From IMG/VR virus record IMGVR_UViG_3300033064_003894, positions 1 through 64,000 of that record: DNA of 64,000 nt, one strand, 5' to 3'. This DNA comes from a virus. Under the pieces are notes generated by a model. It searched no databases, was not told where the DNA came from, and was given only the letters and a program-made list of their open reading frames with translations. A program made the position numbers and the translations under genes. Positions 2,163 to 62,797 of the stretch are shown in pieces; position 1 is the stretch's first letter; each line of letters begins with the position of its first letter.

Positions 2163-2587
2163 CAGACCACCTCCCCGGCCAGCGGCTCGTCGAGGGCGGC
2201 GCGGAGTTCGGCGGCGCAGGAGTTCAGGCCGTTACAGAATCCTTGCTCCCCTTGTGTAGCAGCGGGGAAACTTGCCGACGCCTTCCACCTCCCAACCAGC
2301 GCCCTTATCGTGTTGAGTTTATGCGCCGCCTCTTCTCGCACTTCTGCCATCTGCCGCTCCCACGCGAGCGCGGCGGCGCTGATCTGGCGGCAGACTTCCT
2401 TGGGTTCGCCGGACAGATGCACCTCGCGGATGGTGGTGTTTGCCGACGAGCCGTAAACAATAGAGCGCCCGCAGTGGCCTACTACGGACAGGCCAAGGAT
2501 GGGGTGTAGATAACTGGACACCGCGCCGTGGACGGTGAGGACCCACTCGGGGCCGGGGTGGTCGGGTTGGTGTTCGGTATCGTTCAT
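2162..2587 (-). CDS. hypothetical protein, helical C terminus
   Basis: 141 aa from ATG 2587 (MNDTEHQPDHPGPEW), which overlaps the upstream stop as ATGA. It begins with the same MNDTE as the neighbouring 2584-2817 protein, and the DNA before both starts is alike, another small duplication inside the island. The C-terminal half is helical and charged (AWERQMAEVREEAAHKL) with two late cysteines. No family recognised. Confidence 0.55.
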   Translation of the reverse strand: MNDTEHQPDHPGPEWVLTVHGAVSSYLHPILGLSVVGHCGRSIVYGSSANTTIREVHLSGEPKEVCRQISAAALAWERQMAEVREEAAHKLNTIRALVGRWKASASFPAATQGEQGFCNGLNSCAAELRAALDEPLAGEVV

Positions 2588-2817
2588 GCGGGCAGTTGGG
2601 GATTCGGATGATTCTGGGCTTCTGTCGGATGATTGTCGGATGGTTGTTGCTGGGTGCTCGGGCAGGGATTCGGGTGGAGGCATACGCGCTTGCCGTCTAC
2701 CATCGTGTAGGGGCCGGGGCAGCAGCGGGACCGCTGGTAGGCGTGCCACGCTGCTGAACCTACAGAAATCTTTCCCTCTCTGACGAGGCGTTCGACGTGG
2801 GTTTCGGTATCGTTCAT
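2584..2817 (-). CDS. small Pro/His-rich hypothetical protein
   Basis: 77 aa, first full gene of the GC-rich island. ATG 2817 overlaps the TGA of the 19-codon mini-ORF at 2814-2873 in the form AAATGA, so it is probably translated by coupling. It contains a CCPG and a CLHPNPCP segment that could bind metal, then a Gln/Asn/Pro-rich tail. No family recognised. Confidence 0.5.
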   Translation of the reverse strand: MNDTETHVERLVREGKISVGSAAWHAYQRSRCCPGPYTMVDGKRVCLHPNPCPSTQQQPSDNHPTEAQNHPNPQLPA

Positions 2818-4120: not shown

Positions 4121-4369
4121 TTATAAGGTGAAGCATACTGTCAGTACCCACGCCAGAACTGCGCCTAGTAAGAAGTAGAAAAGGTTTGCCATTATTTTAA
4201 GGTTACGGTTATGCTTCGACATTTTTTCCTCGTAAGCATTAGTTCTTAAAGTGTCAAACCGTTCATTTATTCGACCAACATGATAAGACAATGATTCCCT
4301 AAGATTTTTACTTTTTTCCTTCAAATAGGCAATTTCATTTTCAAACTTCTCTTCCTTTTTCTTTTCCAT
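4121..4369 (-). CDS. tail-anchored coiled-coil membrane protein
   Basis: 82 aa. The first 55 residues are highly charged and helical (KFENEIAYLKEKSKNLRESL), typical of a coiled coil. The last 22 form one hydrophobic helix (ANLFYFLLGAVLAWVLTVCF). The shape is that of a tail-anchored inner-membrane protein. AGGAGATCAA precedes the ATG. Its own promoter lies at 4404-4411 with a 34-nt leader. Confidence 0.6.
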   Translation of the reverse strand: MEKKKEEKFENEIAYLKEKSKNLRESLSYHVGRINERFDTLRTNAYEEKMSKHNRNLKIMANLFYFLLGAVLAWVLTVCFTL

Positions 4370-4403
4370 TTGATCTCCTATTGCACGGTATTGTGCTTAA
4401 GTA

Positions 4404-4411
4404 TTTATACC
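4404..4411 (-). promoter_or_regulatory. -10 octamer GGTATAAA with SD leader
   Basis: GGTATAAA lies 34 nt upstream of the ATG at 4369. The leader carries AGGAG, so this promoter belongs to the leadered class. Two CTTAAG palindromes flank it. Confidence 0.5.
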
Positions 4412-4460: not shown

Positions 4461-5015
4461 TCAAAGACCCTCTCTGGATACATCTTCAGTCTTGTCTTTC
4501 ATTTCTGCAATTATCATGTCGTGCGCATATACAGTTTCAATCTTGTAAATCTCATCTTTAACATACTTAGAGATAGCCGCTTCTCCTAGCCCATCTAAGG
4601 CCCTCACATCTTTAAGTGCAGAAAGTCTACCAGATTCTAGAGACTCTCCTATTTCAAAGCTTAGCTTAGATATGCACGAAGTAAGGCTCTCATTATTCAT
4701 GTACATTTCATGTCTGATGCGAGATATCGTGTGATGACATTCGTCTAATTTGTCATTGACCAACCCCTTTTTAAGCGCCTCAATCTGACTTATTTTTAAA
4801 GCCTCATCCGTAATGCGCCTCATCAAAAGATCCGTGTTAGCTTTCTTTAAAGCTTCTATGTCGCGCACTAGATATTTAATTGATGTCTCCTTTGTTTTCA
4901 TATATTCCAACGCCTCTTCGGAGCACGTGCAATTGCGGCATTCGCCTTCTTCAAGCAAATTCTCTGCACATTCGCATTCCCCAAAGCCATCAAACCAATC
5001 AGGCATTCTAATCAT
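4461..5015 (-). CDS. Cys-rich coiled-coil protein
   Basis: 184 aa. Near the N terminus six cysteines cluster (CECAENLLEEGECRNCTC, residues 14-31), a probable metal site. The rest is a long heptad-like helix (KYLVRDIEALKKANTDLLMR and onward). The ATG at 5015 is 5 nt after GGTATAAC, so the mRNA is predicted leaderless. Function unknown. Confidence 0.6.
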   Translation of the reverse strand: MIRMPDWFDGFGECECAENLLEEGECRNCTCSEEALEYMKTKETSIKYLVRDIEALKKANTDLLMRRITDEALKISQIEALKKGLVNDKLDECHHTISRIRHEMYMNNESLTSCISKLSFEIGESLESGRLSALKDVRALDGLGEAAISKYVKDEIYKIETVYAHDMIIAEMKDKTEDVSREGL

Positions 5016-5020
5016 ATCGA

Positions 5021-5028
5021 GTTATACC
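5021..5028 (-). promoter_or_regulatory. -10 octamer GGTATAAC, leaderless class
   Basis: Five nt (TCGAT) separate the octamer from the ATG at 5015; there is no room for a Shine-Dalgarno. Confidence 0.6.
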
Positions 5029-5053: not shown

Positions 5054-5305
5054 TTAATCCTCTAGATCTTCGCCGTAAATTGGCTTAGGCTCTTTTGTCG
5101 CCTTTACCTTTTTCTTTCTGCAACGAGAGCACAAAGATTTTATAATAGACAAGACGCTATGCTTTGACGGATTATCATGCATACAGAACAGGCAGACAGG
5201 TCCGTCATGCAAATCGTCACTGTGACCAAAGATCCAGCACAACGGACGTTGATAAACAAACAGAATTCTATCTAAATAACAACCTAGCTTTTTGTGTATT
5301 TTCAT
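5054..5305 (-). CDS. small Cys-rich zinc-finger-like protein
   Basis: 83 aa. It has a CLFC pair (residues 38-41) and a CSRCRKKK pair (59-62), plus HSDDLHDG between earlier cysteines, consistent with a small zinc-binding domain and a basic tail. The ATG is one nt after the TAA of the mini-ORF at 5307-5357, and GAGGAC lies just upstream. Function unknown. Confidence 0.55.
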   Translation of the reverse strand: MKIHKKLGCYLDRILFVYQRPLCWIFGHSDDLHDGPVCLFCMHDNPSKHSVLSIIKSLCSRCRKKKVKATKEPKPIYGEDLED

Positions 5306-5306
5306 T

Positions 5307-5357
5307 TTAGTCCTCTAGTCCTATCGGAAGCTTTATTTCTTTTGGTTTATGCTGCAT
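5307..5357 (-). CDS. leaderless 16-aa mini-ORF
   Basis: The peptide MQHKPKEIKLPIGLED starts exactly 5 nt after GGTATAAT (5363-5370) and stops one nt before the next ATG (TAA-A-ATG). The same design as the mini-ORFs at 2814-2873 and 46459-46512. Its last codons also form the GAGGAC that may act as Shine-Dalgarno for the following gene. Confidence 0.5.
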   Translation of the reverse strand: MQHKPKEIKLPIGLED

Positions 5358-5362
5358 TACGT

Positions 5363-5370
5363 ATTATACC
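5363..5370 (-). promoter_or_regulatory. -10 octamer GGTATAAT directly after a terminator
   Basis: The octamer begins right after the T tract of the hairpin at 5371-5392, so one unit ends and the next begins within about 30 nt. Confidence 0.6.
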
Positions 5371-5392
5371 AAAAAGGGGGCTTTTAGGCCCC
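5371..5392 (-). terminator. rho-independent terminator
   Basis: On the minus strand a GGGGCC...GCCCC hairpin with a short TAAAA-type loop (5376-5392) is followed by TTTTT (5375-5371). It lies 6 nt after the stop codon at 5399. Confidence 0.75.
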
Positions 5393-5398
5393 AGGAGA

Positions 5399-5719
5399 TT
5401 ACCGCTCTCTCGACTTCGAGTAAGAGTCGAGTTCTTCGCAGCGTAGGAACCCTTGGAACTTGGCAATCATTGCAATACCAAGTGTGGCGGCAGGTCGTGC
5501 GTTGTCACCGCACTCACCATTGAGGACTGACTTTGAGATTTGATTGAAGTCAAAGCCATCCTCTGAATCAAGAAGATTTACGTCTTTCAACATCACCTTA
5601 GTCTTCTCAGACAGCTCCTTAGGAGTGTTGCCTCTCGACGTTCTCCACCCAAACTCGATGAGTTCAAGAAGGGCGTCTGTAATCAACATCTGTTTTTTTG
5701 TAAGTAGCTCAGTTCTCAT
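5399..5719 (-). CDS. hypothetical protein
   Basis: 106 aa (MRTELLTKKQMLITDALLEL). Mostly helical, with a TPKELSEKTKVMLKDVNLL segment and a conserved-looking NGECGDNARPAATLG. Predicted leaderless: ATG is 5 nt after GGTATAAA. A terminator follows the stop. No family recognised. Confidence 0.6.
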   Translation of the reverse strand: MRTELLTKKQMLITDALLELIEFGWRTSRGNTPKELSEKTKVMLKDVNLLDSEDGFDFNQISKSVLNGECGDNARPAATLGIAMIAKFQGFLRCEELDSYSKSRER

Positions 5720-5724
5720 CTGTA

Positions 5725-5732
5725 TTTATACC
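5725..5732 (-). promoter_or_regulatory. -10 octamer GGTATAAA, leaderless class
   Basis: Five nt (TACAG) separate the octamer from the ATG at 5719. Confidence 0.6.
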
Positions 5733-5751: not shown

Positions 5752-6069
5752 TCATCCAAGAGACACTAGAAGCCCATCTCCATTAAACTGAGCTTTCATT
5801 TTCAAAAGCTGTTCAGAGCATCTTACCATCAGGGAAGTCTTCGGATAATCCAGTGGGGCCTCTTGACACCACTTAATAAAGTCATATATTGCATAAGCTT
5901 GGCCGCTACTAAAAGAAGTGTTATTGTATAGCATGTCTAGCCGTATTTCAGCGATCATCCCCTTTATGCTTGATGCCCTAGAGTAGTTACCTTCAGCATG
6001 CTCCAGTTCATATAGCTTTTCCCATCTATCAAGTGTTCTATTTAAAGCATCTTCTATTGAGTCATCCAT
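5752..6069 (-). CDS. hypothetical protein
   Basis: 105 aa (MDDSIEDALNRTLDRWEKLY). Helical; a stretch FSSGQAYAIYDFIKWCQEAP follows a long N-terminal helix pair. Single-gene unit with its own leaderless-type promoter at 6075-6082. No family recognised. Confidence 0.6.
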   Translation of the reverse strand: MDDSIEDALNRTLDRWEKLYELEHAEGNYSRASSIKGMIAEIRLDMLYNNTSFSSGQAYAIYDFIKWCQEAPLDYPKTSLMVRCSEQLLKMKAQFNGDGLLVSLG

Positions 6070-6074
6070 TAATA

Positions 6075-6082
6075 ATTATACC
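6075..6082 (-). promoter_or_regulatory. -10 octamer GGTATAAT, leaderless class
   Basis: Five nt (TATTA) separate the perfect octamer from the ATG at 6069. Confidence 0.6.
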
Positions 6083-6380: not shown

Positions 6381-6891
6381 CTTTTTTATTCCGACCAAAG
6401 CAATATTTTTTAATCTGTGTTATTAGATTCTTACACTGAGTCTCAACATAGGCTGTTGTCTTTATAGTTTCGGTACCTCTGTTATGGTTAAGTACATTAA
6501 GAAACGAATACTCCTCTGACATAAGTGATGGGTCAGGAAGGTCATTATGATGCCTGCAGTCAAAGCCTATCCACCATCCTGGACCTAGTTCAGCGAATTC
6601 ATTAGAATATGTGATACTTCCATGTACATTAAAAAGAACGTTCATTGGTATAGAATCTTCTTCATTTGGTGTCTCACTCATTGAATGCAACAGTATTGGT
6701 ATAACCCCCCTGTCGCCTATTTTCTCTTCCATTACTGATCCTATATTTAATCCAATCAATGGCTCACTCTGCTCTTTTCCGTACAGGTAGTGTCCATTTG
6801 GTATGCTTACATATCCGCACCTGTGTCCCATCTCTGTGCCAATAACAACATAATCCATTCCAAGGTATACTTTACGTTTTTCTATTAACAT
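6373..6891 (-). CDS. conserved phage protein with HG-S-TYS and W-GFDCxH motifs
   Basis: 172 aa. The signature GHRCGYVSIPNGHYLYGK near the start, VHGSITYS in the middle and WWIGFDCRHHNDLPD after it resemble a widespread phage/bacterial family of unknown function that I recall having VHGGLTYS and WWFGFDCAHxGD blocks. The conserved Cys/His/Asp residues suggest a metal-dependent enzyme, but the activity is not known to me. The gene overlaps the exonuclease gene by 20 nt. Confidence 0.65.
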   Translation of the reverse strand: MLIEKRKVYLGMDYVVIGTEMGHRCGYVSIPNGHYLYGKEQSEPLIGLNIGSVMEEKIGDRGVIPILLHSMSETPNEEDSIPMNVLFNVHGSITYSNEFAELGPGWWIGFDCRHHNDLPDPSLMSEEYSFLNVLNHNRGTETIKTTAYVETQCKNLITQIKKYCFGRNKKDE

Positions 6892-7522
6892 CTTTAATTA
6901 CCTCATAGGCGGCCCCAACAGAACATAGTATTTTGTGTATGGAACCGTAATCATTTAATATTATATTTAGCAAAGCGTGTTGAACTTTTGCATCATATAG
7001 AGCAGTATGTTTAAGCGTGTTTTCATTCATCGAGTGCACTGCAGCTCTCTTTTTTATCTTGTAAAGGTCTTTAGCTTTATGTAGACTTTCAGAGCCTTGT
7101 CCAACCTTTATTTCTAAAAGAGGATAAAACAAAGAAAATAGATCTAAGCTTCTTATCTTTTTGAATGGATAGAGCTCCTCTCCAAACCATGAGCGTAAAT
7201 ATGGAAGGTCGAACTGTGTTGGTTGTGCCACTATTACGTGCTCAACGTCTTTATCTCTGTCTATATATTCAATGAGAGCAGAAGACATTTGTTCTTTTGA
7301 AATGCCTGAGAGAAGGCAACCTATCTGGTTGTAAGAATGCGCCTCTTCGTTAATATTCTGAAACCAAGACATGGTATCTTCATGCCATCTCAAGTTTTCT
7401 TCCTTGTAAAATAGTTCCATGTCTTCGTCATTGGAGGTAATCCCTATTGATATAACATCATTCATGAGTGGGTTAGGCCCAGAACACTCTATGTCTATAG
7501 ACAAATACTTTACTGGCTTCAT
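6872..7522 (-). CDS. DnaQ-like (DEDDh) 3'-5' exonuclease
   Basis: 216 aa. Exo I is LSIDIECSG with D10 and E12, Exo II is AQPTQFDLPYL with D105, and Exo III is KHTALYDA with H172 and D177, the full DEDDh set of the RNase T/DnaQ fold. These enzymes remove nucleotides from 3' ends of DNA or RNA using two metal ions. As a stand-alone exonuclease it could act in genome processing, host nucleic-acid turnover or RNA maturation. It starts its unit with a leaderless-type promoter. Confidence 0.85.
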   Translation of the reverse strand: MKPVKYLSIDIECSGPNPLMNDVISIGITSNDEDMELFYKEENLRWHEDTMSWFQNINEEAHSYNQIGCLLSGISKEQMSSALIEYIDRDKDVEHVIVAQPTQFDLPYLRSWFGEELYPFKKIRSLDLFSLFYPLLEIKVGQGSESLHKAKDLYKIKKRAAVHSMNENTLKHTALYDAKVQHALLNIILNDYGSIHKILCSVGAAYEVIKDVNRKT

Positions 7523-7527
7523 TGTTT

Positions 7528-7535
7528 GTTATACC
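7528..7535 (-). promoter_or_regulatory. -10 octamer GGTATAAC, leaderless class
   Basis: Five nt (AAACA) separate the octamer from the exonuclease ATG at 7522. Confidence 0.6.
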
Positions 7536-8076: not shown

Positions 8077-9234
8077 ATGGGAAAAGAGAAAAAAGGCGGG
8101 TCTTATAGCAAAGAGGTTGCAGTAGCTGCCGCGTCTTTGCCTGCCGCTGCAGCCGTGACAAGTGCAAGAGACGCATTAGATTTAACTAGACGTGTAAGAG
8201 CTGCAAAGGAGGTCAGAAATATAACCCAAGGCCTACAGGTCGGAGATCACTTATTTTCAGGAAGACATTTCGCTTCTAGGAAGAGCATGCTTAAGGGAAA
8301 GGTTTTAGCGAATGGAGCAATGATAGAGACTGCCGCAGAAATAGGATCTGGAGGAAGTCTAAGACACTCAATGCCCGTTGTCAAGACGAAAGAAGGCGTG
8401 ACTATAAATAGAAAAGCTGGACCATTCAAGACTCGTTTTGAAAAAAACAGACTTATAGAGAACCCTGGCGGATATACACCATCTAAATCGGAAACCAAGG
8501 GATCTATTTCTAGAAAGAATAGATTAGTAAGTGGAGGGGGCATATACAGAAGTTTAGAAATTAAGCTTGAGGCCCTATCTAAGGCTACTAAGGGAAAGGG
8601 CTTAGCTGAGAAAATAAAGAAATACAAGGATAATATTAAGTTACGTAATAGACAATATAATAAGACTGATAAAGTTACAGACAGAAGGATTAAGAGTAAA
8701 CCTAAAGGCAGTATGGGAATAGTGAATTCATATGATAGACATACTCCAAAGATACATATAACTCCAAGGAAGCCTCTTACGCTAGAAGAAAAGGGTAAAG
8801 TTAACGAGTTCTTGTTGAAAAGGAAGAACACAACATATGACGTAGATGGAGCTGTTAGCGGAGGAACGAGAAGGGTCTTCTTCCCTAGACTTTTCAGTAG
8901 AGGGGGAAAAAGCCTTACAGGTAAAAGCGGCGCTCTTAAGTCGTATCACTGTGGATCACTAGGGGCAGCGAGCTGTGCTCTTGTTGGTCGTGGACCGTTA
9001 AAGGATGTAAAGAGATCGCTACCTTCTGATTTATTGATGAACAAGAAGGATTACAAGATTGTAGCTGTTAATAATAGAAAAGCTGTAATTGCTGACATAA
9101 GTCACGGATTGAAGATGAGGAATAGGGCTCATCTAAAGGCTGGAATTGTTATGGCTGCAGCAGGGTTTGCTGGCGGAGCGCTGATTAAGAAAAAGAAAAA
9201 TGAGGGACTTAAGAGTCCCCATAGCGTAACTTAG
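8077..9234 (+). CDS. possible permuted papain-like (NlpC/P60-type) protein with TM anchor
   Basis: 385 aa, strongly basic. LQVGDHLFSGRHF (about residue 50) resembles the GD-start of permuted NlpC/P60/LRAT-like domains. A candidate catalytic His follows in SLRHSMPVV (about 92), and a candidate Cys comes much later in YHCGSLGAASCALVG (about 290), the His-before-Cys order of permuted members. A C-terminal hydrophobic helix (AGIVMAAAGFAGGALI) precedes a KKKK tail. If right, it could be a virion-carried peptidase or amidase. The order of motifs is seen; the fold is inference. Confidence 0.45.
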   Translation: MGKEKKGGSYSKEVAVAAASLPAAAAVTSARDALDLTRRVRAAKEVRNITQGLQVGDHLFSGRHFASRKSMLKGKVLANGAMIETAAEIGSGGSLRHSMPVVKTKEGVTINRKAGPFKTRFEKNRLIENPGGYTPSKSETKGSISRKNRLVSGGGIYRSLEIKLEALSKATKGKGLAEKIKKYKDNIKLRNRQYNKTDKVTDRRIKSKPKGSMGIVNSYDRHTPKIHITPRKPLTLEEKGKVNEFLLKRKNTTYDVDGAVSGGTRRVFFPRLFSRGGKSLTGKSGALKSYHCGSLGAASCALVGRGPLKDVKRSLPSDLLMNKKDYKIVAVNNRKAVIADISHGLKMRNRAHLKAGIVMAAAGFAGGALIKKKKNEGLKSPHSVT

Positions 9235-9593
9235 CTCACGCTTCTGACAAGCTCTAACCGTCTTGCTCTAGTCATTCTGCTGTATACGTCTTCTGCAAGT
9301 TCGTCACACAGACCTTCTTCTTCCAGTCCGCCAATGTCAAGTCCATGATCATATATTGCGATGTGAGCAATCTCATGAAGAGCGATAAGGGCAACCTTTT
9401 TCTTTGTTTCTAGGAAAGGACTCACCCAGAAAGTCCGGTTCGGGAAGTAAGAGGCTCCATATAGAAATCCGAGAAATACTGCAGGATTAAAGACATTTAT
9501 GAGCGGCGTATCAATTACCAAGCCTGAAATCTGATTCTTTGAGCTTAGTTTTTTAACCATTGAAACCAAAGACGAGAACGTTTTTTTATTCAT
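9231..9593 (-). CDS. small HEXXH zinc metallopeptidase-like protein
   Basis: 120 aa from ATG 9593, preceded by AAGGA. VALIALHEIAHIAIYDHG gives H73, E74 and H77; a downstream acidic block (GLEEEGLCDELAEDV) may supply the third ligand. Segment order and spacing match the 45400-45843 protein, so they are probably paralogues. The substrate is unknown. The stop overlaps the convergent 8077-9234 gene by 4 nt. Confidence 0.65.
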   Translation of the reverse strand: MNKKTFSSLVSMVKKLSSKNQISGLVIDTPLINVFNPAVFLGFLYGASYFPNRTFWVSPFLETKKKVALIALHEIAHIAIYDHGLDIGGLEEEGLCDELAEDVYSRMTRARRLELVRSVS

Positions 9594-9627
9594 GTAGTTT
9601 TCCTTTAGATGCTGCAAGATGCTGCAT
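9586..9627 (-). CDS. possible 13-aa mini-ORF
   Basis: The peptide MQHLAASKGKLHE starts 8 nt after GGCATAAA and overlaps the start of the protease gene by 8 nt. Its DNA contains two inverted GATGC/GCATC copies that can form a hairpin before the Shine-Dalgarno. Weaker than the 5-nt cases. Confidence 0.3.
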   Translation of the reverse strand: MQHLAASKGKLHE

Positions 9628-15063: not shown

Positions 15064-15291
15064 CTAGGAGTCTAGCATTTCTATGTCAGTGAGTTGGGAT
15101 GTAGATGCATCAATAGCTTCGCGTGCCTCTTGATCATCAGCAGTCCACTCGTCATCCTCTTTGAAGCTAGGAGACCAGTTGTCTATCCAAGACATCACAC
15201 GGACTAACGCATTGTTGGACTTACCAAGCAGCATCTCAGCCCGTCGCGCCCTCTCTTCCCAATTCATCTTGTGTATGTACCTTTCGGACAT
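15064..15291 (-). CDS. small acidic hypothetical protein
   Basis: 75 aa (MSERYIHKMNWEERARRAEM). An N-terminal helix is followed by a Trp-rich acidic part (SWIDNWSPSFKEDDEW). It has a strong AAGGAG ribosome binding site and a leader of 46 nt after GGTATAAA. Function unknown. Confidence 0.6.
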   Translation of the reverse strand: MSERYIHKMNWEERARRAEMLLGKSNNALVRVMSWIDNWSPSFKEDDEWTADDQEAREAIDASTSQLTDIEMLDS

Positions 15292-15337
15292 TTGAGTTCT
15301 CCTTTGTTAGCAGTTTGTGAAACTCTGCTGTCTATGT

Positions 15338-15345
15338 TTTATACC
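15338..15345 (-). promoter_or_regulatory. -10 octamer GGTATAAA with SD leader
   Basis: Leadered class: 46 nt lie between the octamer and the ATG at 15291, and AAGGAG is present. Divergent from 15386-15391. Confidence 0.55.
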
Positions 15346-17301: not shown

Positions 17302-18243
17302 TTAACCTCCATTGAGCTCTATTGCTCTTAATCCTTTGAATTCCTCAATACGTACAAGAATCTCATCCAGAATCTCATCCAGATCATTATATGCTGCTGT
17401 ATCACATCTAGCATTTTCTATTAGGGTTTTCATATTTATAGACATATTTATATTATGTATTCTTATAGGGTCCTTACTAAATAGACCCATAAGAGACATA
17501 ATTGATTTTATTATCTCAAAAAACTCCCTATATTCGCCACATTTTGCGGCCTCAATAATCAACGCGCGTCTTTTATTAATTATAATATTTACAGTATCTT
17601 TGCTGTTCGATATCTCAATAGACATCATCAAGTTAAGTGATTCAAAAATTCTGTCAGTTTCTTTTCTTGAAATATCGTAATTGCTTCCAATACAGCGACG
17701 ATACGTCATTTTATTATATTTCTCTACAAAACCTGGATTGGTAGATCCGGTATCTCTAGACATACATGAAAGAGCCTTAGCATCGTCCCCAAAAGCATGA
17801 ATCTCATATATACCCGACTGCGTATAAGGTATATTTAAATAATGTATTCTGCAAGAATCAGGAGAACATCCTCCGTCAAATCTAGCATTATTAAGTATAT
17901 ATACATTTATTTTCGGCATTCCTGAAAGGGACAATAATGGGCGACTCCCATTATATAACAACTGAAAGTTTAGATCAGATTTAGTGACATCAATAGTAAT
18001 ATTCTTTGACGGGTTATTGCGTCTATGCATATGGCAGCATCTCCACGCGCACGTGGAAGCATTGCACCATGATGTGCAAACGCCACAGTTGCAATAACCA
18101 AATCTAGGTATTTCTATAGTTATTGTTGAACAGCCGCTACTTTCAAAACTTCCTATTAGCTCTTCAACTGCATTTGAATTACAAAACTCTTTATAATCCA
18201 TCCCTTTATGCTCAATCAGTGCACAGCTTTCATTTACATCCAT
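17302..18243 (-). CDS. hypothetical protein with dense cysteine cluster
   Basis: 313 aa. Residues 49-72 hold nine cysteines and a His in about 25 positions (YCNCGVCTSWCNASTCAWRC then CHMHRR). Such density suggests a multi-metal site or a disulfide knot. A second cysteine group (FDGGCSPDSCRIHYL) follows around 125. The rest is alpha/beta. First gene of its unit, with a promoter 6 nt before the ATG. No family recognised. Confidence 0.55.
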   Translation of the reverse strand: MDVNESCALIEHKGMDYKEFCNSNAVEELIGSFESSGCSTITIEIPRFGYCNCGVCTSWCNASTCAWRCCHMHRRNNPSKNITIDVTKSDLNFQLLYNGSRPLLSLSGMPKINVYILNNARFDGGCSPDSCRIHYLNIPYTQSGIYEIHAFGDDAKALSCMSRDTGSTNPGFVEKYNKMTYRRCIGSNYDISRKETDRIFESLNLMMSIEISNSKDTVNIIINKRRALIIEAAKCGEYREFFEIIKSIMSLMGLFSKDPIRIHNINMSINMKTLIENARCDTAAYNDLDEILDEILVRIEEFKGLRAIELNGG

Positions 18244-18249
18244 TCATAC

Positions 18250-18257
18250 TTTATCCC
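18250..18257 (-). promoter_or_regulatory. -10 octamer GGGATAAA, leaderless class
   Basis: Six nt (GTATGA) separate the octamer from the ATG at 18243. Confidence 0.5.
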
Positions 18258-27822: not shown

Positions 27823-28761
27823 TTAAGATGAGCTAATCGTGCTTAGAAACCTTTCTGCCAAGGCAGATACGATTCCTATGAGCCTACCCTTACCAGAGTA
27901 GATTAGTGGCACTCCAGCAGATTTACACGCAGGAGTAATTATTTGTGTTGTTCTGTGAGACAGAAAATTTTCAGATACAACAACCATGTCATATCTTTTG
28001 TTTTTTATCCTCTCACCGTAAGAGTTCATGTTTGAGCAATCACATTCAGCAGTATCTAGGACTTTAACTCCTGTGACGGACTTTACTTTAGCCATCACAT
28101 GATTATCAATCCTGCTACTTATGATCAACATACTCTTACCCTCAGTAATGGCGCGAATCGCAGGAATGTTTTCATTCATTATACCGCAATCAGGAATCTT
28201 AATTTCCACAACAACCTTTGTTCTCTTCTTTTTTACAGGTGTACTCACTACAGCAATCTCTGTAATTTCAGCCTGATTTGCCGTCACCTGCTTTGCAGTT
28301 ACCTCAGAAGCAAGGTCAAGAAGCCGGTCGCTTCCATATTGAGCGATGAACAGAAGGATAACGTCTTCAGGAGATTCAGTTAGAATCCTGTCGACTACAT
28401 CCCAATCATCTTCTTTCTCTGTCTTTGCCTCACCAGGAACTCCTTTATTGACTATTAAGGAGCTCTCCTGCGCGGCAGACAAAACGGATCTTGTTATTCT
28501 TTTTTGTATCGGAGACAGCCCAAACTCTCCATTTAGAGTCTTCCTTTGAATGTGCGCACGGCATGCCCCTTTCTTGAGATTGAATTCGTAAGTCCTTCCA
28601 CAGAAGACGCCAATTCCTACTAGGCACAAGCATCCATTCTTATTTACCTTTCCGTAACGAGCGGCATCGTAGTACAGCTCTCCGTGAGACTTACAGAATG
28701 GGCCTGCAGAAGCCTCTTTCTTACACTCGTGGCCAATTGGCCAACCTATGCAAATGTCCAT
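27823..28761 (-). CDS. Cys-rich protein with C-terminal DUF2325-like domain
   Basis: 312 aa. The N-terminal 80 residues hold paired Cys/His groups (CKKEASAGPFCKSHGELYY and CLCLVGIGVFCGRTYEF), likely zinc knuckles. A helical linker follows. The last 115 residues alternate strands and helices: SMLIISSRIDNHVMAKVK, RYDMVVVSENFLSHRTTQII and AGVPLIYSGKGRLIGIV. These fit the small Rossmann-like domain I know as DUF2325. Strong AAGGAGG precedes the ATG. Function unknown. Confidence 0.55.
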   Translation of the reverse strand: MDICIGWPIGHECKKEASAGPFCKSHGELYYDAARYGKVNKNGCLCLVGIGVFCGRTYEFNLKKGACRAHIQRKTLNGEFGLSPIQKRITRSVLSAAQESSLIVNKGVPGEAKTEKEDDWDVVDRILTESPEDVILLFIAQYGSDRLLDLASEVTAKQVTANQAEITEIAVVSTPVKKKRTKVVVEIKIPDCGIMNENIPAIRAITEGKSMLIISSRIDNHVMAKVKSVTGVKVLDTAECDCSNMNSYGERIKNKRYDMVVVSENFLSHRTTQIITPACKSAGVPLIYSGKGRLIGIVSALAERFLSTISSS

Positions 28762-28807
28762 GAATCCTCCTTATTGTTAGATTCGCTAGAGTATTCTAGC
28801 TTATGAT

Positions 28808-28815
28808 TTTATACC
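28808..28815 (-). promoter_or_regulatory. -10 octamer GGTATAAA with SD leader
   Basis: The leader to the ATG at 28761 is 46 nt and carries AAGGAGG. Divergent from 28836-28843. Confidence 0.55.
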
Positions 28816-29400: not shown

Positions 29401-29478
29401 TGGCCTGGCTGGGAGGACTCGAACCTCCGACCGTCGGATTAGAAATCCGATGCTCATTTCCAACTGAGCTACAGCCAG
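29401..29478 (-). tRNA. tRNA-Arg (anticodon UCU)
   Basis: Every arm pairs perfectly on the minus strand: acceptor CTGGCTG/CAGCCAG, D stem GCTC/GAGC, anticodon stem TCGGA/TCCGA around loop TTTCTAA, T stem GGAGG/CCTCC around TTCGAGT. Discriminator G and an encoded CCA follow. It reads AGA, a codon favoured in this AT-rich genome. It is embedded in the operon running from the lysozyme gene. Confidence 0.95.
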
Positions 29479-31206: not shown

Positions 31207-31214
31207 TTTATACC
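31207..31214 (-). promoter_or_regulatory. -10 octamer GGTATAAA for the lysozyme operon
   Basis: It overlaps the TAA stop of the upstream gene (31208-31210). A 20-nt leader with AAGGAGG follows. Confidence 0.6.
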
Positions 31215-31687
31215 AACGAAATTACTGAATTTAAGAACTCTTCAGAGGTCTTTTTAAGTAGCTTCTCTCGCACAACACTATTGGCTACATTGAAGCCCAT
31301 TATCGAAAGTCTTGCAAGTCTATGCATTTCTGAGGCATCTATAACATTCACCTTTATAAATCTTATCATTGCCGCCCAATACCTAACTACTTCACAAAGT
31401 AACGTTTCAAAGGAAAGCGCCAGCCTTACAAGACTCTTACACGGAGAGACAGAATTTGTGTTTCTAAATTTAAGGTATTCTGCTCTATTTATAATACGCA
31501 TCATTTTTTTTAGATTCTCCTGTATTGACACAATCCCAAAAAATGACTTGCCAGAAATCTTTTCTGCCTCTCGGCATGCATCTATGGCAACCTGTATTCC
31601 GTTTGCAGAAGCAAACATCTGATCAAGAAGGTCTCTTGATATTAAATTTTTATCTGCAGTCAATCTCGTCTTATGAGAATTACCCAT
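31208..31687 (-). CDS. helical hypothetical protein
   Basis: 159 aa (MGNSHKTRLTADKNLISRDL). Long amphipathic helices (GIQVAIDACREAEKIS, SLVRLALSFETLLCEVVRYW) dominate. Monocistronic, with a leaderless-type promoter. No family recognised. Confidence 0.6.
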   Translation of the reverse strand: MGNSHKTRLTADKNLISRDLLDQMFASANGIQVAIDACREAEKISGKSFFGIVSIQENLKKMMRIINRAEYLKFRNTNSVSPCKSLVRLALSFETLLCEVVRYWAAMIRFIKVNVIDASEMHRLARLSIMGFNVANSVVREKLLKKTSEEFLNSVISLV

Positions 31688-31692
31688 AAGTG

Positions 31693-31700
31693 TTTATGCC
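31693..31700 (-). promoter_or_regulatory. -10 octamer GGCATAAA, leaderless class
   Basis: Five nt (CACTT) separate the octamer from the ATG at 31687. Confidence 0.55.
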
Positions 31701-45385: not shown

Positions 45386-45393
45386 GGTATAAT
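45386..45393 (+). promoter_or_regulatory. -10 octamer GGTATAAT, leaderless class
   Basis: Six nt (CACCTG) separate the perfect octamer from the ATG at 45400. Confidence 0.6.
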
Positions 45394-45399
45394 CACCTG

Positions 45400-45843
45400 A
45401 TGAGCGGCAAAAAGAGAATATTAAAAAAATCTTCTGCAATCGTAGAGAGAGAACAGATTAATAAGATCGCAAAAATGGTTTCTTCATTTGTAAAGAGTCC
45501 AAGAATTCGTCCGGCGTCTCGTGCACATATACAGAGACTCCCTGATGAGTGGCTTGGGGCCTTTGACCATGGAACTCTAGACAACGGGGAAAGGCATTGT
45601 TCAAGAACATTTATTTTGCTGAATAAGAAGCATCTTAATGGAAAGAAGAAAAAGTCGGTTTCTGTTCTTATACATGAGATAACTCATCTTGAAATATACA
45701 GGTCAGGGTATGACAGCGTGATTACGTTGTCAGGTGAAGAGGTGATATGTGAAGTTGTTAGCGCAGTAGTCTCAGCATCACTCACTAAAAAAGATATAGA
45801 TCGTCTATATAAAGTCGCTGAAACTCTTTGGGACAGAGACTAA
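45400..45843 (+). CDS. small HEXXH zinc metallopeptidase-like protein
   Basis: 147 aa. SVSVLIHEITHLEIYRSGYD gives H92, E93 and H96, with a later Glu in LSGEEVICEVVSA as possible third ligand. The layout (strand TFILLN, a KKK turn, HEXXH helix, glycine, then an acidic E-x-x-C-[DE] helix) matches the 9231-9593 protein. Likely a divergent phage protease or a catalytically modified relative; the target is unknown. Convergent with 45840-46415 by 4 nt. Confidence 0.65.
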   Translation: MSGKKRILKKSSAIVEREQINKIAKMVSSFVKSPRIRPASRAHIQRLPDEWLGAFDHGTLDNGERHCSRTFILLNKKHLNGKKKKSVSVLIHEITHLEIYRSGYDSVITLSGEEVICEVVSAVVSASLTKKDIDRLYKVAETLWDRD

Positions 45844-46445: not shown

Positions 46446-46453
46446 GGTATAAT
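46446..46453 (+). promoter_or_regulatory. -10 octamer GGTATAAT, leaderless class
   Basis: Five nt (CCCAA) separate the perfect octamer from the mini-ORF ATG at 46459. Confidence 0.6.
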
Positions 46454-46458
46454 CCCAA

Positions 46459-46512
46459 ATGGGACGAACCTTGGAAACTGTACTTATTTTTTGTGTGGTT
46501 GACTTATGCTGA
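46459..46512 (+). CDS. leaderless 17-aa mini-ORF
   Basis: The peptide MGRTLETVLIFCVVDLC starts 5 nt after GGTATAAT, and its TGA (46510-46512) lies just inside the next gene, whose ATG is 46506-46508. There is no Shine-Dalgarno before the next gene (GTTGACTT), so coupling is the obvious way to start it. The hydrophobic centre could also be a tiny membrane peptide. Confidence 0.5.
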   Translation: MGRTLETVLIFCVVDLC

Positions 46513-46928
46513 AAACACCGTATAAAATAAAGACAATGAAAAACACCTTCATTGGCAGGGACAGAATATCTGCCGTAAGAATCAAGGTCGCATCTTCCGC
46601 TTTAGTTAGCGGAGAATGCCTTGACTTTGAAAATAAATTCATTAAAGTGTTCAATGTCACACCAAATGATCTAAAAAACCGGTACCTCTATATTGAGTAT
46701 CAAATCAAAAAGGCAGATTTTGATGACTATATATTTGTAAGAGACGCTGTTGTTGCAGGAGGCGCTATTGTACTTACAAAGGAAGAGGCCTTGGAGATGA
46801 ATGAACAAAATGGATCAAAAGAAACTAAAGTGCCCACAATGCAAGCTCCTAGTGAAAAGCCCATTGCTAAACGACGGAAGGCCGTGCGTAAAGTGCGAAA
46901 GCCTGATACTGAGAGCGGCGAGGTTTAA
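46506..46928 (+). CDS. hypothetical protein with basic C-terminal extension
   Basis: 140 aa (MLKTPYKIKTMKNTFIGRDR). The first 100 residues form a beta-rich domain (IKVFNVTPNDLKNRYLYIEY). The last 40 are low-complexity and basic (EKPIAKRRKAVRKVRKPDT), and their DNA also encodes the N-terminal half of a zinc-ribbon protein in the +1 frame. Function unknown. Confidence 0.55.
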   Translation: MLKTPYKIKTMKNTFIGRDRISAVRIKVASSALVSGECLDFENKFIKVFNVTPNDLKNRYLYIEYQIKKADFDDYIFVRDAVVAGGAIVLTKEEALEMNEQNGSKETKVPTMQAPSEKPIAKRRKAVRKVRKPDTESGEV

Positions 46929-49606: not shown

Positions 49607-50279
49607 CCAGATATACTTTGCGTCTGCAGAGTATACAGAGGGTAAACTCTACCCAATGGAGAAATCACCTAATATTGTGATTGCCCCTGAGGCCCTTTAT
49701 ATAAAGAATAAGCCTGGAACATCAGAAGAGAAGTTTGTAAAAATAAACAATTGGGGTAAAGGTTCACCTGAAGGACTGTATAACTTTTGTATTAAATTTG
49801 AGAGCCCGAAAGACGTATTAGGTTATTACGATCCAGTGTCAATGCTAGGATATCCTAGAATAGAAGCATATGATTCTCAATATTCATTAGATATATACCA
49901 AACTCCAACCAAAGAGCTCTTAGTTGGGACAAAGACGGAATCTTTGCCTCTACTAAGAGCTATCGATTTGACTGAGGAGGCCGCAGGCCTTGTTGATTCT
50001 GGAGGATGGCCTCCAGATAATTGGTGGTTTAATGCTACATATGGATCAGGAGTTGGAAGGATAAAAGCATTAAGCGGAACATCTAGTTATTTGGAGTGCA
50101 GCTCTATTATTAAGCCTGCCGGAGGATACGTGTACCTTCCAGGAAACTCTTCTGCATATGTTGGTCAGTCTTACAGCGAGGCATTCTATTTCTCTGTTTG
50201 TGCCGTAATACCACCAGACAGCTACAGGGGTATGATCGGTCACGATATTATTTTGACATGCAGATCCCACTTCATTTAG
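49497..50279 (+). CDS. beta-rich structural protein
   Basis: 260 aa (MASPIIKWYVETAGKTSSLL). The sequence has the Gly/Ser/Tyr-rich strands of a virion or baseplate protein, with EEKFVKINNWGKGSPEGLYN and WWFNATYGSGVGRIKALSGT. The first 110 nt overlap 49064-49606 and the last 8 nt the convergent 50272-51423 gene. No Shine-Dalgarno is visible. Confidence 0.55.
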   Translation: MASPIIKWYVETAGKTSSLLASPQNWAEISSTSGTASQIYFASAEYTEGKLYPMEKSPNIVIAPEALYIKNKPGTSEEKFVKINNWGKGSPEGLYNFCIKFESPKDVLGYYDPVSMLGYPRIEAYDSQYSLDIYQTPTKELLVGTKTESLPLLRAIDLTEEAAGLVDSGGWPPDNWWFNATYGSGVGRIKALSGTSSYLECSSIIKPAGGYVYLPGNSSAYVGQSYSEAFYFSVCAVIPPDSYRGMIGHDIILTCRSHFI

Positions 50280-51423
50280 AGCAATTCAGGAAAACATCCT
50301 GAAGATCAGCCAAAGTGAGAATCTCTGAAATTGTAGTTCTTGCTGGATATACTTTGTAGTGATCGTTACCTGCCATTATTGATAGGTTAACAACTCCGCC
50401 AGATCTATTGCTTTGCAGGCCAGTTATAAATCCGTATTTCGCTACTAGCACTGCAGGAACAGTCATTTGGCTAAATATGTCATTTGGCGTGTATGCCTTC
50501 TTATACAGTGAGGTGTCAGAATGAAGCCTAGTTGATTTTGAAATACGTAAGTTTTGATTTACCTTCGACAGATGAGACATGAACCCAAAGGTGTCTATTT
50601 CTGATACAGTTGAAGTTGAATCTCTTATAATATCAGAATAGTCCGTTCCCATACACGGAATAATTGCCTCTGTTATGCTGGAATTGTAAAGAATTTCTTT
50701 TATCATAAGCTCAGCATACTCTTTATGAGTGTATGTATAGAGATAACGATTCATAATGTTTGACGACGGAAGAGACTCTATGCTCTTATTGTTTGAAGTA
50801 ATAGAAGTAAATGGTGACAGAATGTGAATAGCCACTCTTGAAACAAAAGAAGAGTCTTTCTCTGAGGCAAGCTCATTTACCACTTTACTGATAACTCCAT
50901 TCTTTCCTGCCTTCAAGTCTCTAAGGAAGTTTGGAACTCTATCGCTACTATCCTTTCCAGACTTCTTCCACTCTTTACCGTCTTCAGAAATCCTTCTGCA
51001 CACGTTCTCAATAATCTTGCATATGCCTGTTCCGTTTAGGTGTGATGCGTATATTTTTCCTGAAACGTTTAAATAGCATAGCATGTGTCCTGAACCGTCA
51101 TCAATCATTGCTCCTATGGCAGACAGCTCGTTTCTTCTTTGTTCGACTATCCCCATATGTTCGTCTACATCATTTGAGTACAAAGGGTATCCAACTATGG
51201 ATGGACCATCCTCAGTAATTGAAGTCATAATCATCCTCTGAAGCTCATCTGGAAGATTCTTAATGCTTCCGTATATATTCCCTCCTACTGCTATAGTTGA
51301 GTGTGATCTGTGAATTAACGAAATATGAGGCTTTATTCCAGTCTGGTCAGACACTGCCCTAACAAAATCTGTAATTTCTAAATCATCTGACAAATTAATG
51401 ATTTGTTGTTCTTCTCCTATCAT
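50272..51423 (-). CDS. hypothetical protein
   Basis: 383 aa (MIGEEQQIINLSDDLEITDF). Alpha/beta N-terminal domain with HSTIAVGGNIYGSIKNLPDE, a helical middle and a beta-rich end (NLSIMAGNDHYKVYPARTT). Monocistronic, with a promoter 6 nt before the ATG. No family recognised despite good length. Confidence 0.55.
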   Translation of the reverse strand: MIGEEQQIINLSDDLEITDFVRAVSDQTGIKPHISLIHRSHSTIAVGGNIYGSIKNLPDELQRMIMTSITEDGPSIVGYPLYSNDVDEHMGIVEQRRNELSAIGAMIDDGSGHMLCYLNVSGKIYASHLNGTGICKIIENVCRRISEDGKEWKKSGKDSSDRVPNFLRDLKAGKNGVISKVVNELASEKDSSFVSRVAIHILSPFTSITSNNKSIESLPSSNIMNRYLYTYTHKEYAELMIKEILYNSSITEAIIPCMGTDYSDIIRDSTSTVSEIDTFGFMSHLSKVNQNLRISKSTRLHSDTSLYKKAYTPNDIFSQMTVPAVLVAKYGFITGLQSNRSGGVVNLSIMAGNDHYKVYPARTTISEILTLADLQDVFLNCSK

Positions 51424-51425
51424 AC

Positions 51426-51437
51426 TATAATTATCCC
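51426..51437. promoter_or_regulatory. overlapping divergent -10 elements
   Basis: GGGATAAT leftward (51437-51430) lies 6 nt before the ATG at 51423. TATAAT rightward (51426-51431) lies 12 nt before the ATG at 51444. The two elements overlap. Confidence 0.5.
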
Positions 51438-62295: not shown

Positions 62296-62663
62296 TGTCA
62301 AACATATTCTTCGCTGGAGAAACAGTACCTAGAACACTTGAAACTAAAAATCACGCTGAGTCTCTTGATAAATCAATAAACCCTGACGATATAATAGCAA
62401 AGGCTGCTGAGGATAATAAGGGTAAAAGAGCTATAGCCTCTGAAGAAGTTAAGGCTCCTGAAGAAATGAGACCTTCATATTTGAAGTATCACTTTTTTGA
62501 GCTACCTAAAGACTCCGTTGAATACGAAACCGTTTGTAAGAAGATCTCTGAAAAAAAATATTCATTTGCTAAGGAAATAGTCAGGGATGTTAACGATGAC
62601 ATTGGTTCAATCGCTATTCATTTGTTCCTTACAGAGACTAGGATTGCGAGTAGTATTCATTAA
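62295..62663 (+). CDS. hypothetical protein after portal
   Basis: 122 aa (MSNIFFAGETVPRTLETKNH). An acidic/basic N-terminal half and a folded C-terminal half (PSYLKYHFFELPKDSVEYET). It shares one base with the portal stop. Could be a head-assembly accessory. Convergent overlap of 26 nt with 62638-62784. Confidence 0.55.
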   Translation: MSNIFFAGETVPRTLETKNHAESLDKSINPDDIIAKAAEDNKGKRAIASEEVKAPEEMRPSYLKYHFFELPKDSVEYETVCKKISEKKYSFAKEIVRDVNDDIGSIAIHLFLTETRIASSIH

Positions 62664-62784
62664 TAGTTTCTTCTCTAATCTCTTCTACTAATTTATCTCG
62701 TTCGCTTATTTCTTCTTCAATTTCTTGGCCAGACATGTCATTAGCTACTTCTATAAAGCAAAAGTGCCCATCTTTTTCGTCCAT
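62638..62784 (-). CDS. small acidic 48-aa protein, leaderless
   Basis: MDEKDGHFCFIEVANDMSGQ begins a highly acidic helix (EIEEEISERDKLVEEIREET) ending in TAG at 62638. Its ATG is 5 nt after GGTATAAA, which supports it as real. No family recognised. Confidence 0.55.
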   Translation of the reverse strand: MDEKDGHFCFIEVANDMSGQEIEEEISERDKLVEEIREETINEYYSQS

Positions 62785-62789
62785 AACTG

Positions 62790-62797
62790 TTTATACC
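62790..62797 (-). promoter_or_regulatory. -10 octamer GGTATAAA, leaderless class
   Basis: Five nt (CAGTT) separate the octamer from the ATG at 62784. Divergent from the RNA promoter at 62817-62844. Confidence 0.6.

Follow-up and report, generated by a model that had tools for sequence, protein, structure and literature searches.

Leaderless messages and short coupled leader ORFs both have precedents, the former in the cI message of phage lambda and the latter in tap-repA of plasmid R1. In mycobacteria, leaderless transcripts open unannotated small ORFs whose stop overlaps the next start (RTGA); the arrangement is over-represented, and in some cases the leaderless start and the linkage are conserved and the peptide is not (Shell et al. 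2015, PMC4633059). A synthetic leaderless bicistronic cassette has been built in C. glutamicum, and its full output depends on translation of the fore-cistron and on the SD of that fore-cistron (PMC10367133). Among phages with their own multisubunit polymerases, AR9 has leaders of 26-491 nt, and, as the AR9 paper notes, leaderless transcripts are common in phages (PMC5312081); the mReC lineage (PMC7481178), also phages with a multisubunit RNA polymerase, resembles the present phage by polymerase type alone.

Here we describe three ORFs of 16-19 codons (mini-ORFs 1-3) from a virus record of 139,837 bp with 40% GC; the window is a stretch of 64 kb of this record, and genes were called on the whole record. 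Like the mycobacterial small ORFs, they are putatively leaderless and end on or beside the next start, but the former are bacterial genes with mapped transcription starts and ribosome profiling (PMC4633059), whereas the phage mini-ORFs are known from sequence alone. The exact RTGA overlap occurs in one of the three, and conserved examples, which the mycobacterial type has, were not found here. With the C. glutamicum design (PMC10367133) they would share a leaderless promoter and a short fore-cistron followed by the target gene, but that fore-cistron carries a strong SD, whereas two of the phage mini-ORFs have only a GAGG and the third lacks even that. A short nonsense ORF that boosts the next gene (PMC13255528) is alike in that the peptide is irrelevant and ribosome recruitment counts; unlike the phage mini-ORFs, it is synthetic, works in E. 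coli and has a strong internal RBS beside its stop. The first-pass annotation knew of no described system of this kind, which holds for phages, in which a limited open-access literature search found no description of the mini-ORF arrangement, but not for bacteria, given the mycobacterial (PMC4633059) and C. glutamicum (PMC10367133) examples. The leaderless small first cistron is already known in bacteria, and it is the lineage, a phage, that is unexpected.

Octamer promoter, probable leaderless genes and relatives

The window contains 22 copies of the octamer GGKATAAW, where 9.9 are expected (none of 100 shuffles was as high), and of all 7-mers GGTATAA shows the strongest enrichment upstream of genes. 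Over the whole record the octamer, with at most one mismatch, lies at a fixed 4-6 nt (mostly 5-6 nt) before the starts of some 13-15 ordinary genes, with a sharp peak at +5/+6 in both this phage (G000) and a relative, G001. On the minus strand of the window, the ATG stands at +5 in the genes at 5399-5719 (octamer 5725-5732), 5752-6069 (octamer 6075-6082), 4461-5015 (GGTATAAC, 5021-5028), 6872-7522 (GGTATAAC, 7528-7535), 31208-31687 (GGCATAAA, 31693-31700) and 62638-62784 (48 aa; GGTATAAA, 62790-62797), and at +6 in those at 17302-18243 (GGGATAAA, 18250-18257) and 50272-51423 (383 aa; GGGATAAT, 51430-51437). A plus-strand gene at 45400-45843 (GGTATAAT, 45386-45393) also has its ATG at +6. In each of the two phages, 10-15 ordinary genes have an octamer whose predicted transcription start falls on the AUG, and the gene of the 2464-aa RNA polymerase is among the octamer-led leaderless genes. 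A TATAAT-like box located 5-7 nt upstream of first genes reaches 0.88 per gene per 10 nt in this phage and 0.79 in G001, compared with 0.05 and 0.21 before contact genes, an enrichment of about 18-fold and 4-fold, respectively; before first genes of the distant relatives G004 and G006 the box is absent.

SDs of at least 4 nt are near the control level in every gene class of this phage, and at or below it in the leaderless class; in D69, Arash, G004 and G006 they precede roughly 60-100% of genes. About one third of the genes of this phage start touching the stop of the preceding gene, with ordinary spacing and mostly without an SD.

Octamer promoters without an ATG mostly have a pyrimidine at +4 followed by a purine, and because of this step in the leadered promoters the transcription start is placed on the A of the ATG. 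A weak TTnAAA-like element at -20 to -15, about 17 nt upstream of the octamer, makes the promoter layout sigma-70-like. The GGTATAA/GGCATAAG element is also present in distant phages with related polymerases, and this recurrence favours the phage enzyme over that of the host as its reader; no Pfam sigma region 2, as expected of a phage sigma factor, was found in the genome. We infer that the octamer serves as the -10 element in a promoter of this phage lineage and that transcripts begin 5 nt after it. An ATG is lacking at +5 behind leadered and intergenic octamers, and for this reason we rejected the idea that this ATG acts as a promoter element in its own right, as TATG does in phiKZ. With the octamer 5-6 nt before many ordinary ATGs, SDs near background and the pyrimidine-purine step at +4/+5, the leaderless starts proposed by the first-pass annotation are well supported, and leaderless expression in this phage clade is very probable.

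Relatives were found by alignment of three polymerases; seed scans with single window proteins or with the polymerase alone returned none, and a genome scan with the polymerase gave nothing useful on the host. The nearest relative, G001 (156 kb), has a polymerase 48-49% identical and the same octamer arrangement before its own genes; G002 is the same phage (99.998% identical), so that the relatives found within the leaderless clade amount to this one phage. PHROG hits and tblastn, with about 30% identity to D69 and Arash, place the polymerase among phage beta/beta' enzymes. Salmonella phage Arash and Vibrio phage D69 are alike in having a related beta/beta' polymerase and terminase, and the GGTATAA element is common to Arash, several virus records and this phage. 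Most genes of Arash, D69 and the distant records tested are preceded by an SD, whereas here many genes are leaderless and the polymerase is one chain of 2464 aa; the more distant phages with related polymerases have kept the octamer and use leaders with an SD. In the distant polymerase-encoding phages (L009-L086) the element reads GG[TC]ATAAG, and in many cases position +5 is T and position +6 a purine. An ATG at +4 in distant relatives was considered as leaderless translation and discarded, a T-R initiator with the start at +6 being its probable explanation.

The genome has further features of its own. RNA polymerase beta and beta' are fused in the 2464-aa chain (L001:6515-13909, record 70515-77909), whose NADFDGD/TMNIHAPVS catalytic motif is, from the alignment, split by about 460 intein-like residues, also in G001. 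The large chain of ribonucleotide reductase (L004:9053-12520) carries a LAGLIDADG/Hint insertion, probably an intein. Fifteen tRNA genes lie on the minus strand within one 12-kb stretch (L002:7520-19818), and a tRNA-Arg is found at 29401-29478 of the window.

Three mini-ORFs and the genes behind them

The coordinates, lengths (16-19 codons) and junctions of the three mini-ORFs were checked in the sequence and agree with those first given, and in all three the ATG lies exactly 5 nt after GGKATAAW. Mini-ORF 1 (MDKILNNKKHKSIMTEDTK, 19 codons) occupies 2814-2873 on the minus strand behind the octamer GGGATAAA (2879-2886), and its stop overlaps the ATG at 2817 as AAATGA, an ATGA junction at 2814-2817. 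Mini-ORF 2 (MQHKPKEIKLPIGLED, 16 codons) lies at 5307-5357, also on the minus strand, behind GGTATAAT (5363-5370); a terminator-like hairpin, GGGGCCTAAAAGCCCC-CTTTTT (5377-5392), stands directly upstream of this octamer, and the next ATG, at 5305, follows the stop after a gap of +1 (TAA-A-ATG). Mini-ORF 3 (MGRTLETVLIFCVVDLC, 17 codons) is on the plus strand at 46459-46512 behind GGTATAAT (46446-46453), with its TGA 4 nt inside the ORF that begins at 46506, a 7-nt overlap provided that this start is correct. The peptides are unrelated, and their coding scores are 2.2, 5.9 and -3.6. No slippery site that would fuse a mini-ORF with its gene by frameshifting was evident.

It had been proposed that each mini-ORF serves a gene lacking its own loading site. 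This clearly applies to the third gene, mini-ORF 3 having no SD-like site within it, but the claim is not clean for the first two, as a weak SD-like GAGG lies at SD distance inside the mini-ORF on the minus strand, 7 nt before ATG 2817 in mini-ORF 1 (2825-2828) and 6 nt before ATG 5305 in mini-ORF 2 (5312-5315).

The ORF behind mini-ORF 1 (2584-2817, minus strand, 77 aa) opens a GC-rich gene chain with ATGA/TGATG junctions; mini-ORF 1 heads this cassette (401-2860, 60% GC), in which small genes are joined by ATGA and TGATG overlaps, and its junction is of the same kind as the others. The first 15 nt of ORF 2584-2817 recur at the next gene start, 2587. Gene starts in the cassette, which lies in a phage of 40% GC, are partly repeated (MSEHTKDTQ twice, MNDTE twice), and no match to it was found in phage DNA. 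Behind mini-ORF 2 lies an ORF of 83 aa (5054-5305, minus strand), with a coding score that is weak although the best of the six frames. The ORF behind mini-ORF 3 (46506-46928, plus strand, 140 aa) has an ambiguous start, at 46506 or, 30 nt later, at 46536, the latter with a -10-like CGTATAAA of its own at 46519. Coding scores are weak for two of the three downstream genes, one of which lies in the GC-rich cassette, where the coding model fails because of the base composition. No homologue of the genes behind mini-ORFs 2 and 3 was found in 32 related virus records, and phage records yielded none for those behind mini-ORFs 1 and 2. The close relative G001 contains no mini-ORF of 16-19 codons; it has a 55-codon leaderless ORF that overlaps the next gene by 17 nt.

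An ATG at +5/+6 opening at least 8 codons, with the stop at most 12 nt from the next start, was seen three times among 16 leadered promoters versus 0.079 expected in dinucleotide-shuffled leaders with starts kept (P 4e-5), a value to be read with criteria and downstream starts picked post hoc. In a softer control, ORFs of 8-30 codons touch any ATG of an ORF of 70 or more codons in 6% of all cases and in 20% of intergenic cases, the latter figure counting the three mini-ORFs themselves; contact in three of three then has a P of about 0.003. These tests suggest that the arrangement is likely to have been selected. A fourth ORF with its ATG at +5 (34 codons, behind GGAATAAT at 123559, minus strand) runs past the gene start, which has an SD of its own.

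Three weaker cases of the first-pass annotation dropped out. The 4-codon ORF before 28858 has its ATG at +3, upstream of the predicted transcription start, and the TTG ORF before 46415 has its TTG at +1. The ATG of 9586-9627 is at +8, inside a 5' hairpin (z -3), and AAAGGA precedes the gene; here the relative has the promoter without the short frame, the likely homologue in G001 being directly leaderless.

Leadered octamer transcripts tend to have a stem-loop within roughly 25 nt of their 5' end, and a strong SD often follows it. On the minus strand of the window, the promoter at 4370-4411 has the hairpin GCAC-aatacc-GTGC and then AGGAG before gene 4121-4369, that at 28762-28815 has CTAGA..TCTAG and then AAGGAGG before gene 27823-28761, and that at 15292-15345 has a weak hairpin (z -0.6) and then AAAGGAG before gene 15064-15291. 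With both phages pooled, the first 30 nt of leadered transcripts fold better than shuffles (mean z -1.9, n=26), whereas those of leaderless transcripts do not (mean z 0.0, n=23; p 5e-5), the leadered class having been compiled by hand and including some G001 members that may be RNA promoters rather than mRNA leaders. Stem-loop leaders are found in G001 as well (28141, 31715, 104212), and the trend extends to distant relatives. One metallopeptidase-like gene differs between the two phages: in the window (9231-9593) it has a leader with a hairpin and an SD, and its likely homologue in G001 (L087:5151-5525) is directly leaderless. The first 38 nt of the mini-ORF leaders are unstructured (z -0.65, 1.5 and 1.3 for mini-ORFs 1, 2 and 3), and these transcripts, having neither a 5' fold nor an SD of 5 nt or more, therefore resemble the leaderless class (n=3 only).

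Possible function and its meaning

The reading that we find best, and to which we give an even chance, is that the mini-ORFs are leaderless first cistrons, the shortest of their kind, and that each is coupled to the gene that follows and delivers ribosomes to it. An ATG 5 nt after the octamer would yield a leaderless mRNA, on whose 5'-terminal AUG the ribosome would begin; most ATGs at the transcription start would open ordinary genes, and in three operons the first ORF would have no more than 16-19 codons. On termination the ribosome, or one of its subunits, would then start the next ORF, whose start codon touches or overlaps the mini-ORF stop, and the weak GAGG inside the mini-ORF would help the restart in two cases; the peptide itself need not matter. 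Such stop-start delivery is plausible and fits the many SD-less contact pairs of this genome. The sequence itself shows where the promoter lies, the leaderless geometry of many genes here and in a relative, the scarcity of SDs, the contact of stop and start, and mini-ORF transcripts free of a 5' hairpin; the exact transcription start, the polymerase used, leaderless initiation and termination-reinitiation are inferred.

Alternatively, and as the main rival, tentative but serious, the ATGs at the transcription start may be accidents within ordinary leaders of 50 nt, with the genes loaded directly, by GAGG in two of them, and the mini-ORFs either untranslated or translated to no effect. It is not unusual for TG to follow an A at +5, the GAGG 6-7 nt from ATG 2817 and ATG 5305 could serve with its 4 nt alone, the further ORF with ATG at +5 (123559, minus strand) ignores its gene start, and the ATG at +4 that arises from the T-R initiator in relatives shows that chance promoter ATGs occur. 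Against such accidents, all three frames stay open along the full leader and end at the gene, where 0.08 were expected, and the mini-ORFs do not have the 5' hairpin or strong SD (5 nt or more) of many other leadered transcripts.

It is improbable that the mini-ORFs are small genes with functional peptides, their coupling being the ordinary operon junction seen genome-wide: the -4 and +1 junctions are of the same kind as those of neighbouring genes, and leaderless genes of 48 and 55 aa exist, but the peptides are unrelated and their coding scores (2.2, 5.9, -3.6) give no clear support. Short ORFs just upstream of genes are also the usual form of regulatory leader peptides, acting by attenuation or as stalling uORFs; this we regard as very improbable here, since the first 38 nt have no folding potential and regulatory codon runs are absent. 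In an attenuator, a terminator or alternative hairpins would be expected within the leader ORF or behind it, and the leaders are unstructured over those 38 nt; no terminator-like site is listed between mini-ORF 1 or 2 and its gene.

If the mini-ORFs are indeed coupled leaderless first cistrons, they would provide a case of leaderless bicistronic expression occurring naturally in a phage, and gene finders will overlook small leaderless first cistrons in such phages. A wider proposal, which we consider doubtful, is that a clade with its own fused RNA polymerase swapped SD initiation for a promoter that prints leaderless mRNAs, with contentless ORFs of 16-19 codons loading ribosomes for genes that are not leaderless themselves, and with the same promoter alternatively yielding mRNAs that have a stem-loop at the 5' end and, in many cases, an SD behind it. 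If the coupled-cistron reading is right, the clade would differ from its relatives by leaderless starts versus SD leaders while the promoter element is common to both, and the cost and benefit of leaderless translation would therefore be testable by comparison.
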